Shown here: positions 2,839 through 58,440 of the stretch, piece by piece
Numbering within the stretch: position 1 is the first letter of the stretch
Layout: every line of letters starts with the position of its first letter
DNA from: Thysanoteuthis rhombus
Taxonomy: Eukaryota > Mollusca > Cephalopoda > Oegopsida > Thysanoteuthidae
DNA: 64,000 bases
Assembly: GCA_963457665.1 (NCBI GenBank)
Contig: OY735227.1
Coordinates: forward strand, 47,349,914 to 47,413,913
Direction: 5' to 3'
The notes under the pieces: model-generated
What the model saw: the letters and a program-made list of their open reading frames with translations, nothing else
What the model was told of the DNA's origin: nothing
Databases searched by the model: none
Made by a program: the position numbers and the translations under genes

Positions 2839-2949
2839 ATTCTGGCACATCATCCACACTCACTACTTTGTTACCTGCTCCGAGTTTCAAGCCGAAACTC
2901 AATGTGCAATGAATGCCACTAGACAACAACAACAATAATAATAATGATA

Positions 2950-3112
2950 ATAACGGAAACTGAAGGAAATGTTGAACACGGAAGTCGGGTAGTATCAATA
3001 ATAGTTGGTGCACTTGGAACTGTACCAAAGACACTGAAAATGAAATCTGGAAATAAGAAACAGCACTACTGGGGTCGACACGAATACTGAGGAGAGTTCT
3101 GGTAATATAAGA
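2950..3112 (+). mobile_element. RLE-type LINE, 3' end of ORF only (copy 2a)
   Basis: Conceptual translation contains SIIVGALGTVPKTLKM (about 2998-3045), then with a frame change QHYWGRHEY. These match VIVGALGTVPKTLRV and QTTALLGTARI at the C-terminus of the copy ending at 5194. Only the last ~50 codons are present, bounded on the left by mixed CAA/AAT triplets. The next RLE copy begins almost immediately (about 3130), so two copies are joined or nested here. Confidence 0.75.
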
Positions 3113-3208
3113 TCAGCAATGGCCTAACATCCAGGGTGAAAAACTTTACACGGTAGACTCATCCACCTACTCCAAAGTTGTCTAAACGAAGGCAAGGCAC
3201 CAGAATGG

Positions 3209-4467
3209 ATGACCAAAGGCAGAACCACTCTCATCCAAAAAGACCCAGAAAAAGGGAACATAGCAAGCAACAATAGACCAATCACGTGCCTACCACTTAT
3301 GTGGAAAATCCCGACTGGACAAATAGCAGAGAGAATATACATGTTAATGGAAAGAAGGGGACTATTACCAGAAGAACAGAAAGGGTGTAGGATAGGAAGC
3401 AAAAGAGCAAATGATTTACTTTACATAGACCAGATGATCTTGAAAGAAGTGAGGAAAAGGAGAAAGAATATCGCAATGGGATGAATAGATTACAAAAAAA
3501 GCGTACGATATGATTCCACATAGCTGGATACTCGAAAATTAGCGAACTGGTGGTTAGATTCATTGAAAATTCGATGAAAAACTGGAAAGTAGACTTGACA
3601 GCCGCAGAGGACAAACTAGCAGAGGTAGGAATGAAAAGGGGAATCTTCCAAAGAGACTCCTTGTCCCCACTATTATTTGTTCTAACAATGATACCGCTCA
3701 ACAGAATTCTGAAGAACAGCAAAAGGTACCATTTCTCTAAAACAAAAGGAAAGGTCAACCACCTAATGTACATGGACGATATAAAATTGTTCGCAAAAAA
3801 CAGGGGAGAGCTTGAGACTCTGTTCAACGAAGTAAAGGAATACAGTGAGGACATTGGAATGGAGTTTGGAATAGAAAAATGTGCAATCATGGTAATGCAC
3901 AAAGGAAGGCTTACAATGACTGAAGGAATTGAACTCCCGGACAACAGCAAGATTAGAGCATTGACTGCACAAAACCGATACAAATACCTAGGCGTCCTTG
4001 AATGTGACACGATAAAACGGGAAGAGATGAAGGAGAAAATAAAGAGAGAATACCTCAGAAGGATAAGGAAAATATTAGAGACCAAATTAAACAGCAGAAA
4101 TCTAATAAAAGGAATGAACACCTGGGCTGTGTCAGTAGCTAGATATACAGGACCATTTCTAGGATGGACAAAGGAAGAGCTCCAATCAATGGATAGGCGA
4201 ACAAGGAAACTTATGACAATGCATAAAGCATTACACCCTAGAGATGATACAGATAGACTATACGTTAAGAGAAAAGAAGGTGGCAGGGGGCTCATTAGCA
4301 TAGAAGACTGTGTCCAGAGAGCTAAAGCAGTCCTAGAAAGGTATGTGCAAACGAATAATAAAGAGTGCGAGAGACAGCGCAACAAACATCAAAGTAGAAA
4401 ACAATGGAACAGCACAGCAAACATGAAAAGAAAGATGGGAAGAGAAAAAATTGTGTGGCGAGTTTAA
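3209..4467 (+). pseudogene. Reverse transcriptase domain of RLE LINE (broken ORF)
   Basis: Frame 3209-3484 carries early RT blocks, including RPITCLPLMWKIPTG and LLPEEQKGCR. It ends where MGWIDYKK has become MG*IDYKK (TGG to TGA), followed by an extra base in an A-run that breaks motif A. Frame 3550-4467 (305 aa) continues with motif B GIFQRDSLSPLLF at residues 31-43 (an arginine where GD is usual), the active site YMDD at residues 74-77 (3769-3780), the GMEFGIEKC block, motif E as YKYLGV, and a thumb region ending near residue 290. The enzyme would copy the element's own RNA onto nicked chromosomal DNA. A long minus-strand frame over the same bases (3297-4385) is only its mirror. Confidence 0.88.
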
Positions 4468-4552
4468 AAGGCATATACAAGATGTAGCAGACAAGAAATC
4501 TTGGACTTGATTACGAAAAGGAAACCTGAAGAGAGAAACTGAATCGCTCATC

Positions 4553-5194
4553 ATGGCAGCCCAAAACAAAAGCATAAGGACAAACTACATAAAAACAAAA
4601 ATCGACAGAACACAGACAAACAGCAAATGCCGCATGTGCTGTGAAAGAGATGAGACAGTAAACCACATAACTAGCGAATGTAGTCAACTCGCCCAGAAGG
4701 AGTATAAGCATAGACACGATAGAGTAGCAACGATGATACACTGGGAACTAAACAAACAAATGGGATTCAACGATGGGGAAAAGTGGTATCAGCACAAACC
4801 AGAGGCAGTTTTGGAGAATGACAACCACAAACTACTCTGGGACTTTGACATCCAAACTGACCACCTCATCCAAGCAAGAAGACCGGACTTGGTAATAGTA
4901 GACAAAAAAAGGAAGGCCTGCCAAATAGTAGACGTTGTTGTACCTGCCTACCATAGAGTGAAAAAGAAGGAGAGTGAAAAACGGGGAAAATACCAGGACC
5001 TAGCAAGAGAATTAAGGAAGATGTGGAACATGAAAACCAGGGTAGTACCAGTCATAGTGGGCGCACTAGGGACTGTCCCAAAAACGCTGAGGGTGAGACT
5101 GGAGGAGATCGGGATTAGGAGAAGAATTGAGACCGTACAGACTACAGCACTACTTGGAACTGCACGGATACTGAGGAAGGTGCTAGAGATATAA
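4553..5194 (+). pseudogene. CCHC zinc knuckle plus restriction-like endonuclease of RLE LINE
   Basis: This 213-residue open frame is the C-terminal part of the same polyprotein, displaced from the RT frame by a frameshift near 4440-4455. The same frame is open upstream to about 4510, where a TGA sits at a position that reads as Trp in related elements (SWTW), so the ATG at 4553 is probably not a real start. Zinc ligands are Cys26, Cys29, His38 and Cys43 (C-x2-C-x8-H-x4-C). The nuclease has WDFDIQTDH at residues 96-104, RRPD at 109-112, a second acidic residue Asp127 after 14 residues, and lysines from 137. This is the PD...D...K layout of the R2-type endonuclease that makes the target nick. 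GALGTVPKTLR and TALLGTARILRKVLE close the protein. This part looks undamaged. Confidence 0.9.
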
Positions 5195-5249
5195 GGACTA
5201 CAACGAATTGTAGCCCTGACGTGATAGGTGAAAGAGAGAGGAGACGTTA

Positions 5250-5631
5250 GCTGAAGACCTGGGGAGACTTATTGCCACTCAGCCTTCAGCGATACCCACT
5301 GGGCAACCGGTGTGAAACTGTAAATCGCAGAATTACTGCGACCTATGAGTACTTGGAGAGGAGGGCTGGAGACTTGAGGAGACTTGCTGTCACTCAAACT
5401 CCAGCGGTTACCACCAGGCAACTGGTGTGAGATGGTACAAACTACAGCGCTGCTGTGATATATGAGGACCACATGAATTGAAAAATGGAGAACGAAGAAG
5501 ACAATCTTCAGTGATAAACACTACGCAACTAGTGTGAAACTGCAAACTAGGACACTGTGTCAGATTGAGAGGGTTGGAAGGTTGGCTGGGGACTTGTTGT
5601 TATACAGTCTTGACCACCAGGTGACTGGTTG

Positions 5632-5633
<2 letters not shown>
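5250..5633 (+). repeat. 3' UTR of RLE LINE: tandem ~105-bp units, each with a GNRA-loop hairpin
   Basis: Four imperfect units follow the stop codon. Each holds a short stem closed by a tetraloop of GNRA form. Unit 1 is CACTGG-GCAA-CCGGTG (5297-5312), unit 2 is CACCAG-GCAA-CTGGTG (5412-5427), unit 3 is ACACTA/TAGTGT around C-GCAA-C (5518-5535) and unit 4 is ACCAG-GTGA-CTGGT (5616-5629), which ends the element just before the AAT tail. A second hairpin follows in units 1-3, for example TCGCAG-AATTA-CTGCGA (5325-5341) and ACAGC-GCT-GCTGT in unit 2. Stem sequences differ while pairing is kept. Role in binding the element's reverse transcriptase is inferred. Confidence 0.75.

Positions 5634-5672
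<39 letters not shown>
5634..5672 (+). repeat. (AAT)n 3' tail
   Basis: About thirteen AAT triplets directly follow the last hairpin of the RLE LINE. This may be a templated or slippage tail, or the target microsatellite itself. Confidence 0.85.
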
Positions 5673-5675
<3 letters not shown>

Positions 5676-7009
5676 GGAAATTTCAACTAATATGGAATTA
5701 AAAGGTTTATATTTTTGAAGACGACACTCTGACTTAACACGTAAATGGTAAATGTAATTACCTTCGGTAAACCTGAATGCTTGGGAAGTTTGCATTAATT
5801 TTAATTGGACAATTTACACACATGATAGGAACATGAACAAGGAAATATCTTTGTGGGGGAAAACAAAGAGATTTCAGAAGACTGAAATAGAATTGGACCT
5901 TGGAAGACAGATGTAGCCTTATTTGAAAATTTATAAAATAATATTTTATCTGGAACTTCGTTCTTAGCTTTTACATGCATATATCTGATTTCTGTCCCTC
6001 AAATACCATTATGTCACCTTCTATGAGAGCACCCTGTCATGTGCCCTCCATAGTGCAGCATGTGCATGAAAAAGTACCGGCTACAACGGTCTGGTCCTAG
6101 CTTGGCAAGATACCCTGTTAATCAGTGGCATATCATGGGCCGAGATGCTCGCAGGGTAATCTTATTGCTGCATAGGAAACCTGGAATTCTCAGACAGTCA
6201 CATACCTTAGTAATGACCAAGCTCTACATCGCTTGAAGTCGATGATCGTACGAGAACCATTGTATTTGATGCTATTTGACCATATATACATACATATATA
6301 TACATGTACACATGAATGTGCATTGAAAACTTCAGTATGAACCGGCGAAATGTCAAAATAAACAATACAAATTTCATTTTAATGCGATATGGTCTGCTAA
6401 ATTGTCTTTTTACTCTAGTATTATCATGCATGACGGACGTGTTCAGTTGGATCCATAAAGTGATAACAAGCACATATATCAGATGAAGATAAAATGATTG
6501 AATGAACAAATGAAATTAAACATTAGTTTACATTCAGCATAATTAATTTAGAGCTCCATTTCTAAGTAACAACTTATTGAGATGTCAACTCTCTAGATCT
6601 GCTTTGGAGAATTTAGAGCAAAAACGAATCGAAACTAAACTCATATGATTAAAGTTATCAGTTAGCGGTTATACCCACTTCCGCTAAATTTTTAGCAGTT
6701 CATTAGTTCAGCTGTGTACACCACTGCTTATCTGAGGATCTTACATAGCGTATGCGTACAATTTCATCCATCCCATTGACTTCATTGAATATGCAGCGTT
6801 TCCTAAAATACGTTTTTCTCTTTCTCGCGTATCGTTCGTTCGTGAAACATGATTCAGAATCGAAAAATAAAGAAAAAAGCTTCCTTCCTTCAGTAGCCTT
6901 GGATGAATCTCTATGAAAATGTTATGAAACTTCACATTCTTGCTGTTCTATTAATTCAACAATATTTTGCTCCCTCATTCTCCAAAATAATTCTCATTGA
7001 TTGATAGTA
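5673..7009. other. Unassigned sequence, no gene seen
   Basis: No credible coding frame. A segment near 6235-6260 around GATCGTACGAGAACC resembles one near 13208-13230 and may be a fragment of an unnamed repeat. A short TATACA-rich stretch lies at 6280-6310. Confidence 0.5.
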
Positions 7010-7381
7010 TATGGAAGTTTACATAGGTATAAACTCCTAAGATAAAAAAATTGTGGATATATACTCCCATAATGGAAGTATTTGGGCATATACTCCTCTA
7101 ATGAAAGTATTTAGGCATAAACTCACATAAGGTGTGAATGTAGGCATATACTCCTATAGTGAAAGTATGTAGGTAAGAACTCCTTTGATGAAAGTATGAA
7201 GGTATAAACTGTAATAGTGACAACATGTAGGTATATACTCCTATAATGGAAATATGTAGACTAAAATGATGACAGTATGTAGGTTTAAACTCTTATAAAG
7301 GAAGTAAATAAAAACTCCTGTAATAAAAGTATGTGAGTATAAACTACTACAATGACAGTATGTAGGCATGTAATTCTATAA

Positions 7382-7625: not shown

Positions 7626-8548
7626 CTACAACTGCATGTTGACATATACTCCTATAATGAAAGTACGTAGGTATAAACTCCTATAATAGAAGCATGTAGG
7701 CATAAACTCCTCAAATAAAAGTATGTGGGTATAAACTCCTATGATGAAAGTATACAGGTATAAACTCCTATAATGACAGTATGTAGGTACATACTCCTTT
7801 AATGGAGGTATGAATGTACAATATTGTTATAATAAAAGTATATGGGTATTTTCTCCCATAATGAAAGTACGTGGGTATGAACACCTACAGCAAAAGTATT
7901 CAAGTATATACTGTTATAATGAAAGTATGTATATACATACTTTCATGATGAAAGTATGTGGATATCATCATCATCATCATCATCATTCTTTTAACGTCCG
8001 TCGTTGGATATGGACTTTCCCCAGGATCCACCACATTTCTTTATCATCGGCGTTGCAGAGCCAGTATTTTCTAAATTTGCCCAGTTCATCTTTCCATCTT
8101 GTATTTTGTCAGCTTCACTTTCGCATATGATCTCTAAGGGTCCATGTTGTAAGTTATCACAACTCACAACATCGGTTGTCTTTCATTCTCGCAACGTAAC
8201 CAGCCCATTGCCATTGAGTTTTCTAATAGATTCTATGATGTCTCAGACCCCCATTTTTCCTGATATATTCAGCTATCTTGTGATTTCTTCATGTGAGGTT
8301 GAGCATGATTGTCTCATGTGCGCATTGCATGCTTCTCAGTCTGCGGATTTGTCTCTTGGTTAGGTTCCATGTTTTGGCTTTATAAGTGACTATCGGGAGG
8401 ATGTATTGGTTGTATACTTTTCTTTTTTAGTTGTTTTTGAAGGTTGAGCTTACTCTGTCGAAGGCTTACCATACTAAGGTGATTCTCTGCTTGATTTCTT
8501 TTCTGGTGGGTTTCATAGAGATTCCTTGTCCTAGGTATATGTAGTGGT

Positions 8549-9953: not shown

Positions 9954-10957
9954 TATGTGTGTATGAATTACAATAAAGAAAGTATGAAGTATAAACTCCT
10001 ATAATGAAAGTGTGTAGGTACAAACCTCTATAAGGAAAGTATGCATGTAAAAACTCCTATAATGACGGCATTTAGGTACATACTCCTATAGGAAAAGTAT
10101 GAAGGTATGTACTCCTATAATAAAAGTCTATTGGTATAAACTCTTGTAATTAAAGTAGGCACGTATATTGTCTTATGATGGAATTATGTAGTTATTTACT
10201 CCCTTGATAAGTATATAGGTATGAACTCAGAACATGAAAGTATGTAGGTATAAATTCAAATAACGAAAGAATGTAGGTATAAATTCTTATAATGAAAGTA
10301 TCTATATATTCCTATGATGAATATATGTATATACACTTACAATAAAAGTACGTAGGTATATACTCTCATAATGAAAATATGTGGGTATATACTCTTATCA
10401 TTAGAGTATGCTTGTATGAATTTCTGCAATGACACTATGAACGTGTATACTCGTAAAATGAAAGTATATTGCTACAAACTCCAATAATGAAATTTGTAGG
10501 TATAAACTCCTATAATAACAGTATGGAGGTGTATTCCAATAATGAGAGTGCGTACATATATATTCCTATAATTAATGTATGTAGAGATAAACTCCTGTAT
10601 TGGAGGCACGTACGCATGAACTCCGATAATGAAAATATTTACGTATATACTCCTATAATGAAAATCTGTAGGTATGATAACCCATGATGACAGTATATAG
10701 GTATAAACTCTTATAGTAAAATTATGTAGGTATGAACTCTTGTGATGAAAGTATGTCGGTATATACTCCCATAATGAAAGTATATAGGTATAAATCTTCT
10801 AATGACATCATGTAGGTATATACTCCTATAATGAATGTCCGTAGGTATAAACTCTTACAATGAAACTATGAAGGTATAAAGTCTTCTAAAGACAGTATGC
10901 TGGTATATACTCCTATAATGAATGTCTGTAGGTACATATTCCACAATAAAAGCATAA

Positions 10958-11726
10958 AAGTAACTTAGAAAAAAAGACTGTTCCCAAAGCCCTGCATAAT
11001 CTTAGTTTCATTAATATTCGCTTTGGTCCCCACAAAAGAGAAAAAATAATCCGGTCTGCCCCTATGAAAAATTTTAAAATATAAGATCATTTATTTAATT
11101 TTGTGCGTGTACCAACATCCACAAATCTCCTTACATAAAGCCAATACATTTGAGAGAAGAAATAGTTAGTAACGAATTGTTAATAAAGTGATTGTCAGTT
11201 CCAAATCACAGATTGAAGAATAAATGTGAACATAATTTTGGTTATTAAACTGGAGAGCTTTTGATATTCAGATTATGATACAATAAAAAGAAAAAATACA
11301 ATACTTGGTGTATAAGTTTTGCAATTATTTAAAATAGTTCTGCCTGCTTTTTGAAAAATTGAAAAATAATATTTCACTTAAACTGAATGAAAAAAAATTT
11401 TGATACTTCATTCCCCCCCCAAAAAAAACAACCGAACAAACAAAAAGCAAAATATTCATCACCTGTTGTTATTTTATCGGATATTTTATTCTATTTGAAC
11501 GATTAAGATAAAGAATCTTGAACCTGACAGCTTTTAGTGAACTGACCGCTACAAAAACTGCGAGTAATTTCTTTTTTATAAATTAAAATAAAAGAAAACA
11601 GTCATCTAATCTATTGCAGGAAATATGCAATATTGAAACGTAAGCTGAATTCTTTCGCTCTAGGGTTCCCATCTTGGCCTAACATATCCCATTACAACCT
11701 GTTTGCGATATGAGAATTCAACTTAG
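10958..11726. other. Unassigned AT-rich sequence
   Basis: No gene or repeat family recognised. Several A-runs and one C8 run near 11414 are present. Confidence 0.5.
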
Positions 11727-26756: not shown

Positions 26757-27245
26757 GTTATTCGTTTCTTTCAATGCAACAATATGTATCAAGAAATTGA
26801 TGTATATGATGCGACAAAATGATTATGAATCGCGTTATATTATACAGAAACTCTCATTTCAAATGATTTTCGGTCAATACACGATTATTGTATCACTTTG
26901 CCTAGACTAGAATAAGCGATTGAAGAAAATGGGGCTGCTGTAGGAATCAAACCTGCGACGATAGGCTAGCCTCTTCAACGTACCGTTGCTCTTACCTTTG
27001 AGCTAAACAGCCACCAGTGATGTAAAGGCCCAAATTACTGTTTTTCTCTAAAATGTGTATGATACCCTGTGGGTCGCAGGTTCGTTTCCTTTATTATCAT
27101 TCCGTCGGGTCATATATATCTATTTCTTGATACATGACTGTCGCATTGAAAGAAACAAACAGAAAAGAATAGACCAAAAATAAACGAGATGAGAATTTGG
27201 AATGGAAACAGTTATTTGGACCTTTGCATTACTGGTGGCTGTATA
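26757..27245 (-). mobile_element. tRNA-like repeat family 2: one minus unit plus an opposing plus-strand end/start junction
   Basis: The minus strand 27025-26757 gives a near-complete unit: tRNA-like head with TTTAGCTCAAAGGTAAG and GCAGGTTTGATTCCTAC, body, and the 3' module ending TTGCATTGAAAGAAACGAAT. On the plus strand at 27085-27245 there is GTCGCAGGTTCGTTTCC, a 3' module, the linker and another head start (TTGCATTACTGGTGGCTGT). This means two units in inverted orientation. Confidence 0.7.
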
Positions 27246-28718: not shown

Positions 28719-28750
<32 letters not shown>

Positions 28751-29281
28751 GTCCACACCAGTTGCCTTATCGTCATTTCTGGAGACTGAGTGACAGAAAG
28801 TCTCTTCATGTCTCCAGCCCTCCTCCCAACACTCTCAATCCACAGCATGTTGTGGGTCGTAGTTTCACACCGGTTCCCTGGTGGTCATCACAGAAGTCTC
28901 CAATTCTCCTCTCATTGTCCTTACATCTCACAAGAGAGCTATGTTTTGTACCGTTTCAACCTTCCCAAGTTTCACTTACACGTCTTTTTTCCTTTTAGCA
29001 ATTAGATCATTTCTGACGACTGGGCTCGTAAGTCTCATACTTACAGTTTTCTCCAGCTCCTCTTGTCGTGTTCCGAGTGTACCTACTATAATTAGTACTA
29101 TTCTGATCCTTCGTGTCTCAGCTTTTTTTCAGCTCCCTTGCCAACTCCTGGTATTTTCTTAGCTCTCTTCCATCTACACTCTATGAACCACAGCCACATC
29201 GATCATTCGGCAGGTCTTCTTTTCTAAGTCCACGACAACTATGTCCGGTCTTCTTGCTTGGATGGAATGGTCGAAGTCACA
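28714..29281 (-). mobile_element. RLE-type LINE, 5'-truncated 3' end (copy 3)
   Basis: Minus strand from 29281: CDFDHSIQARRPDIVVVDLEKKTCRMIDVAVVHRV (in pieces: DFDHS, RRPD, then Asp after 14 residues) is the nuclease core seen at 4840-4960. It is followed by decayed C-terminus and a 3' UTR resembling units at 5365-5430. One hairpin is CACCAG-GGAA-CCGGTG (28869-28884), again with a GNRA loop. The element ends GCAACTGGTGTGGAC and runs into (ATG)n at 28714-28750. Confidence 0.85.
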
Positions 29282-29282
29282 G

Positions 29283-58156: not shown

Positions 58157-58440
58157 AGTACATATTGATATCTCCCTCAGAGAGTACATATTGATATCTC
58201 CCTCAGAGAGTACATATTGATATCTCCCTCAGAGAGTACATATTGATATCTCCCTTAGCGAGTACATATTGATATCTCCCTTAGCGAGTACATATTGATA
58301 TCTTCCTTAGAGAGTACATATTGATATCTCCCTTAGAGAGTACATATTGATATCTTCCTTAGAAAGTACATATTGATATCTCCCTTAGAGAGTACATATT
58401 GATATCTTCCTTAGAGAGTACATATTGATATCTTCCTTAG
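58157..58440 (+). repeat. 26-bp minisatellite, about eleven units
   Basis: Unit ACATATTGATATCTCCCT plus CAGAGAGT or TAGAGAGT, eleven head-to-tail copies. Variants (TCTTCC, TAGCGAG) are clustered, showing local amplification. Confidence 0.95.

Follow-up and report, generated by a model that had tools for sequence, protein, structure and literature searches.

A nested RLE-type LINE with a two-module 3′ UTR in Thysanoteuthis rhombus and a putative reverse transcriptase site at its 3′ end

We found that the row of four GNRA-loop hairpins in a 64,000-nucleotide stretch of Thysanoteuthis rhombus DNA (the window) consists of two two-module 3′ UTRs, one LINE lying inside another. Units 1 and 2 are the end of a young copy that stops at position 5433, and units 3 and 4 belong to the older relative housing that copy. 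A reading made from the sequence only had taken them for four consecutive units of one 3′ UTR, a view that we abandon here. Overall, we consider it probable that a young copy with a two-module 3′ UTR was nested in this way and that its terminal module is a putative reverse transcriptase (RT) site for target-primed reverse transcription (TPRT).

Two nested copies in the window

The window's own genome (2.73 Gb) was searched with the sequence 5170–5633, and the best 40 of 2,612 candidates were scored. Among these, 39 places besides the window are 95–97% identical over 5170–5433. The match stops at query position 264, corresponding to window position 5433 directly after the second GNRA hairpin, in 38 of the 39 places, and 13 nt further, at query position 277, in the remaining one. 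When the flanks of seven copies were fetched, six entered AAT-type repeats within a few bases and the seventh ran into the nuclease sequence of another copy. The rest of the row, 5434–5632, has a top match elsewhere of 74% over 178 nt, with shorter pieces reaching 81%, and the matches covering at least 80% of its length are 66–74% identical, in 11 loci. In these relatives, the stretch is placed downstream of their own nuclease end and ahead of their own modules.

With 2945–3136 joined to 5434–5640, alignments to eight of the other loci examined span the join by 25 nt or more in both directions (62–68% identity, many gaps). When the left part is extended to 3151, the break sits at a conserved GGTACAAAC in L048, L053 and L043, while the same position reads GGT-CAAGC in L047 and takes a gapped form in L068. 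Since the joined flanks are collinear with these relatives, the young copy (about 3152–5433) lies inside the 3′ UTR of the older one. Its left border is inferred from the break in the older element; the longer copy that we fetched is alignable only from window position 3595. GGTA is found at both borders of the young copy and may represent a target duplication. The 60-nt junction between units 2 and 3 is present, among the loci examined, only in the window and in two loci of the same place.

The 5433 endpoints, the junction search and the across-join alignments together lead us to reject a single four-unit element. Four hairpins do stand in a row on the same strand, roughly in register, and arrays that look genuinely in register exist elsewhere in the genome, although rarely: L069 has six modules (spacings of 115, 115, 115, 115 and 114), and L011, L020, L079 and L084 have three each. 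However, module 2 is where nearly all of the near-identical places end, the left half of the older element (2945–3151) joins position 5434 collinearly, the junction recurs in no other locus examined, and all three four-module arrays (L001, which is the window, L050 and L070) look like 2 + 2 composites. One element with four tandem modules of its own is thus extremely unlikely. We also regard it as very unlikely that the array arose by RT template jumping between two co-expressed RNAs instead of by insertion. Available excerpts of the R2 literature describe such jumping, and at the L004 and L067 junctions a 3′ end is directly followed by another copy's coding sequence, but template jumping does not predict that both flanks of the young copy come from one older and far more diverged element. 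A coding origin of part of the repeat was considered as well, as the end of the ORF is similar to the sequence leading up to 5454 (1 of 300 shuffles was as good); this idea was dropped because that stretch belongs to the 3′ UTR of the older copy.

The features of the nested pair and of a third copy are collected in Table 1. The young copy is damaged and truncated at its 5′ end. Its nuclease frame gives a zf-RVT match (E 0.0012) of 19.9 bits, under the curated cut-off of 27.5, and a weak match to a PDB R2 protein (E 0.02), with the CCHC and PD..D motifs recognized by eye. Module 1 scores 94.7 bits against our covariance model, of which it is itself a source.

Table 1. Features of the nested LINE copies and their 3′ UTR hairpins (window positions)
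Feature	Position	Strand	Evidence or remarks
Older element, left part: nuclease ORF end and 3′ UTR start	2945..3151	+	split by younger insertion; preceded by AAC/AAT repeats; tblastn nuclease matches at 2983-3045 and 3060-3107
Younger 5′-truncated RLE LINE copy, nested	about 3152..5433	+	near-identical copies and empty-site alignment
Reverse transcriptase fragment, damaged	3514..4467	+	RVT_1 E 9.3e-13; PDB R2 proteins, best 7e-08
CCHC zinc knuckle and restriction-like nuclease frame, ORF end	4511..5194	+	open frame; motifs by eye
Module 1, young copy	5250..5353	+	H1 5250-5290, H2 GCAA 5297-5312, H3 5325-5341
H2 unit 1	5297-5312	+	CACTGG-GCAA-CCGGTG
Module 2, young copy	5364..5433	+	H1 5365-5405, H2 GCAA 5412-5427; family's usual 3′ terminus
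H2 unit 2	5412-5427	+	CACCAG-GCAA-CTGGTG
Older element, right part of 3′ UTR	5434..5632	+	hairpin 5444-5456; two reduced modules (H2 5519-5534, then terminal H2 5615-5630)
H2 unit 3	5519-5534	+	CACTAC-GCAA-CTAGTG
H2 unit 4	5615-5630	+	loop GTGA
(AAT)n, tail or target microsatellite of older element	5633..5673	+	tandem repeat, 13.7 copies, 100% match
Third copy: nuclease remnant and two-module 3′ UTR	28746..29282	-	H2 28868-28883 and 28756-28771; between AAC/AAT repeats and (ATG)n

Two more degraded remnants of this element type occur in the window, at 2305–2517 on the plus strand and at 249–362 on the minus strand, with tblastn matches to RT (41%) and nuclease (37%). Other repeats and small RNA matches include an Rfam 5S rRNA match at 6169–6287 on the minus strand (45.6 bits), which may head a 5S-derived SINE, an Rfam tRNA match at 26932–27012 on the minus strand (35.6 bits), arrays of a 29-bp minisatellite like ATAAACTCCTATAATGAAAGTATGTAGGT at 7059–7266, 7644–7965 and 9973–10962, and a 26-bp tandem repeat at 58157–58440 (10.9 copies, 96% matches).

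Insertion habit and module architecture across the genome

The assignment to RLE-type LINEs made from the sequence alone agrees with the RT matches in Table 1. Our best reading, based on traits, is a Dong/R4-like RLE LINE that inserts into trinucleotide microsatellites. Among 29 5′ junctions of young-type copies, 17 have four or more trinucleotide units within 40 nt upstream, as against trinucleotide repeats in 23 of 2000 random windows. A clear trinucleotide tail follows 84 of 105 two-module arrays (AAT in 62, ATG in 9, others in 13). The flanks are trinucleotide repeats or other element copies and not the 28S rDNA site that characterizes R2, and insertion into TAA-type microsatellites, a Dong trait, is seen here. 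Several insertions sit where an older copy ends at its 3′ side; such an insertion can leave a new target, and head-to-tail strings arise in this way.

In the accessible parts of the cited papers, Dong of Bombyx mori was amplified with TAA repeats at the 5′ junction (PMC3774820), Dong-R4 LINEs are abundant in coleoid cephalopods (PMC13282606, PMC8967140) and Octopus bimaculoides is reported to carry a Dong element with a complete ORF (PMC9115989). Some HERO families likewise target microsatellites according to the part available (PMC4640811), so this habit is not exclusive to Dong/R4. The element resembles Dong/R4, as described in these excerpts, in its putative RLE nuclease, its relation to R2 and its insertion into TAA-type repeats; a duplicated GNRA module in the 3′ UTR appears in none of the excerpts.

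We then surveyed the modules in loci L001–L088 and the window, which were picked by 3′ UTR similarity, so that module-bearing copies are over-represented. The covariance model gave 6 + 120 + 149 = 275 matches. After two duplicate places (the entry 'window' and L039) were dropped, 132 arrays remained, and these have two modules in 105 cases, one in 16, three in seven, four in three and six in one. The spacing of the two-module arrays is 110–120 bp in 84 of 105 and 114–116 bp in 70 of 105. The three-module arrays of L014 (twice) and L061 are joined via AAT tails.

The two-module architecture extends to the whole genome. There are 11,191 occurrences of the exact module-1 hairpin and 15,543 of the module-2 stem when its loop is left open (CACCAGNNNNCTGGTGTGA); reversed-pattern controls gave 0 and 11, respectively. 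On contig C1, 58 of the 81 listed module-1 matches have a listed module-2 match exactly 115 nt downstream; the other 23 lack a listed module-2 partner downstream, and none of the 81 has a module-2 match upstream within 60–200 nt. The element usually ends with the second H2, which is mostly followed by (AAT)n. On the forward strand, to which this gapped-pattern comparison applies (the reverse-strand counts include overlapping matches), (AAT)4 follows within 25 nt of the module-2 hairpin at 5,368 places and of the module-1 hairpin at 3 of 5,507 places. The gap between the terminal hairpin and the tail is most commonly 10 nt (25 of 84 arrays). The inner module as an alternative 3′ end was rejected, as just six distinct places of this kind were found in all; at three of the six, GAGATTCC or GAGATTGC comes next to the hairpin on its 3′ side, just as it does behind module 2, which suggests recombination.

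Between diverged elements, modules at the same position are more alike (75% for 1 versus 1, 71% for 2 versus 2) than modules at different positions (69% for 1 versus 2), which points to an old duplication. The two modules within one element are 74.5% alike, and some homogenisation is therefore likely. No shared non-LINE head indicative of SINE passengers was found, by eye and self-BLAST, in 36 arrays without upstream RT or nuclease, and no relatives of the element were found in viral contigs and plasmids.

Two side observations belong to this survey. In related 3′ UTRs (L040, L043, L048, L053, L064 and others), two more conserved hairpins were seen by eye before the first module, namely CTGTTAG..CTAACAG soon after the ORF and ACAGCGCTGCTGT ahead of module 1. 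In contig C25 (56608286–56626269), nine PF00264 (tyrosinase/hemocyanin-type) matches with identical scores lie about 2.18 kb apart, a region whose sequence indicates a tandem array of near-identical hemocyanin-like units; a hemocyanin unit of the same genome matches PDB 6r83, a squid hemocyanin, with 682 bits in the best domain, and on this basis a cephalopod host is probable.

Hairpin folds, loop identity and covariation

We found GNRA-form hairpins at all four places where they had been proposed, with the loops GCAA, GCAA, GCAA and GTGA, and the C.C mismatch beneath the loop of unit 3 is present. A further hairpin after H2 had been reported for at least three units, and third hairpins lie at 5325–5341, 5444–5456 and 5551–5561 (the last by eye). 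The similar minus-strand hairpin with a GGAA loop is also real, at 28868–28883. The last GNRA hairpin had been described as the exact 3′ end before the AAT tail; GG stands between the two. The longer hairpin H1 ahead of H2 in units 1 and 2 had been overlooked. In each module, a 6-nt linker connects the long hairpin H1 to H2, which bears the GNRA loop, and a third hairpin (H3) stands between the modules. The four units are spaced by 115, 107 and 96 nt and connected by direct repeats of 17–83 nt.

Folded alone, unit 1 (z -4.31) and unit 2 (5365–5470; z -3.65) are more stable than their dinucleotide shuffles, none of 200 being as good in either case. Unit 4 is borderline (z -2.08; 4 of 200 shuffles as good), unit 3 is not clearly above chance (z -0.13), and the minus-strand units have no excess stability against shuffles (z 0.28 and -1.46). 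The whole 397 nt gave a z of -1.73, a level that 5 of 100 shuffles also reached. When a covariance model was made from the six window units and run over the window, it returned just those six up to E 10, and no known RNA family matches within 5170–5680 up to E 1.

The expectation of a structured 3′ UTR with GNRA loops was confirmed beyond the window. Across many copies, the loops stay GNRA, as the sequence-only reading supposed; the covariation that it also supposed is modest, and its extent varies with the level of measurement. A GNRA loop is present in 211 of 237 anchored modules and in 119 of 140 divergent ones. This count leaves out 15 unanchored modules of the 252 distinct ones and is biased upward, as the model used to find the modules included the loop. 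In the search with the loop left open, which gave 15,543 matches, 95 of the first 100 listed have a GNRA loop by eye (93 GCAA, 2 GTAA).

The stems vary and still pair, as had been noticed. In the six window units, two of which are on the minus strand, 84% of the pair cells hold standard pairs, as against 30–43% when the partners are slid. Changes on both sides are seen in 10 of 24 pairs, as against 0–3 after sliding (3 of 500 shuffles reach 10). Eight of 65 positions distinguish the module-1 consensus from that of module 2. Three stem pairs differ between them and all still pair (A-U to G-C, C-G to U.G and G.U to A-U), one of them via a double change. In six clade consensuses (61 of 102 sequences), 239 of 250 cells are paired, and six pairs have two standard types differing on both sides, as against 0–2 with slid partners. 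Inferred ancestors are paired in 97.7% of cells and tips in 88.2%.

Within the family, covariation is weak, near or inside the slid controls. The odds ratio of co-substitution is 1.52 for module 1 (slid 0.64–1.42) and 1.42 for module 2 (slid 0.87–2.03), and double changes that still pair number 38 for module 1 (slid 7–21) and 26 for module 2 (slid 14–25). Changes that keep pairing are more frequent on internal branches (44 of 88) than on terminal ones (195 of 566; p 0.006), a difference with p 0.11 when Watson-Crick parents alone are counted (30 of 74 versus 161 of 519). G.U shows no advantage over A.C (29 versus 26 on internal branches, 147 versus 154 on terminal ones), so this test does not reveal the RNA strand. 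Both the covariation and the strand tests are diluted because most copies are dead and decay neutrally. A covariation ranking over all modules mainly reflected how module 1 differs from module 2, and we did not use it as evidence.

A predicted docking site and its known counterparts

The order of the terminal H1, 6-nt linker, H2 and A-rich end resembles that of the R2 recognition element, and for this reason we take the terminal module to be a predicted docking site of RT, an assignment by analogy that we judge likely. In the parts of the R2 studies available (PMC10499050, PMC12222951, PMC12180492), the R2Bm protein binds two stems and single-stranded flanks in the 3′ UTR, the last 67 nt of the R2Tg 3′ UTR are bound, and avian and testudine R2 elements have a pseudoknot, a 6-nt hinge and a 3′ stem. 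The likeness to R2 as described there thus comprises a stem, a short linker, a stem and an A-rich tract, which in R2 leads into the RT active site, and the linker here has the length of the avian and testudine hinge. In contrast, R2 targets 28S rDNA and the present element trinucleotide repeats, and the one recognition element described for R2 is here a doubled module with a GNRA-closed second stem. A pseudoknot between the H1 loop and the linker, as in R2Tg and avian R2, was not specific here (0.84 and 0.80 in register 0; 0.81 and 0.88 at shift -3).

The stringent LINEs ZfL2-1, ZfL2-2 and UnaL2 belong to a different, APE-type group. According to the portions available, a 3′ stem-loop of zebrafish ZfL2-1 and ZfL2-2 (PMC4176376) and of eel UnaL2 (PMC6510757) is recognised by the LINE's own protein, and the UnaL2 loop turns into a GNRA loop only upon deletion of a residue (PMC6510757). 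These LINEs are described with a single stem-loop, as opposed to the doubled module here. In the papers searched, mostly those outside subscription, we found no description of an RLE LINE whose 3′ UTR carries a doubled GNRA module, which is a weak negative.

Most likely, the terminal module and the A-rich (AAT) end would be bound by the element's own RT, and this binding would start TPRT at a nicked AAT-type repeat. For the inner module, our reading is that an older duplicate has probably been retained as a spacer or second contact. The two modules could also be docking sites with different jobs, the terminal one priming reverse transcription and the inner one loading another copy of the protein onto that RNA end, for example a second-strand-cutting subunit; the inner module has the same fold, a fixed 115-nt register and almost never forms the 3′ end, but we consider this division of labour improbable. 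Structured 3′ UTRs can also serve RNA stability, export, 3′-end formation or translation. Such a role, or one at the DNA level, in place of RT binding would fit the strand test, which gave no RNA-strand signal; it seems unlikely, as the position of the terminal hairpin shortly before the integrated tail, most often by 10 nt, argues instead for the priming of reverse transcription.

If the terminal module indeed binds RT, the R2 rule of a stem, a hinge, a stem and an A-rich tract would extend to microsatellite-targeting RLE LINEs. The AAT tails serve as landing sites, so copies string head to tail, and such strings can mimic tandem structure in annotation. In this genome, a spurious four-fold array is replaced by a two-module architecture present at thousands of places, and the retained duplicate raises the question of why two copies of the module are needed.
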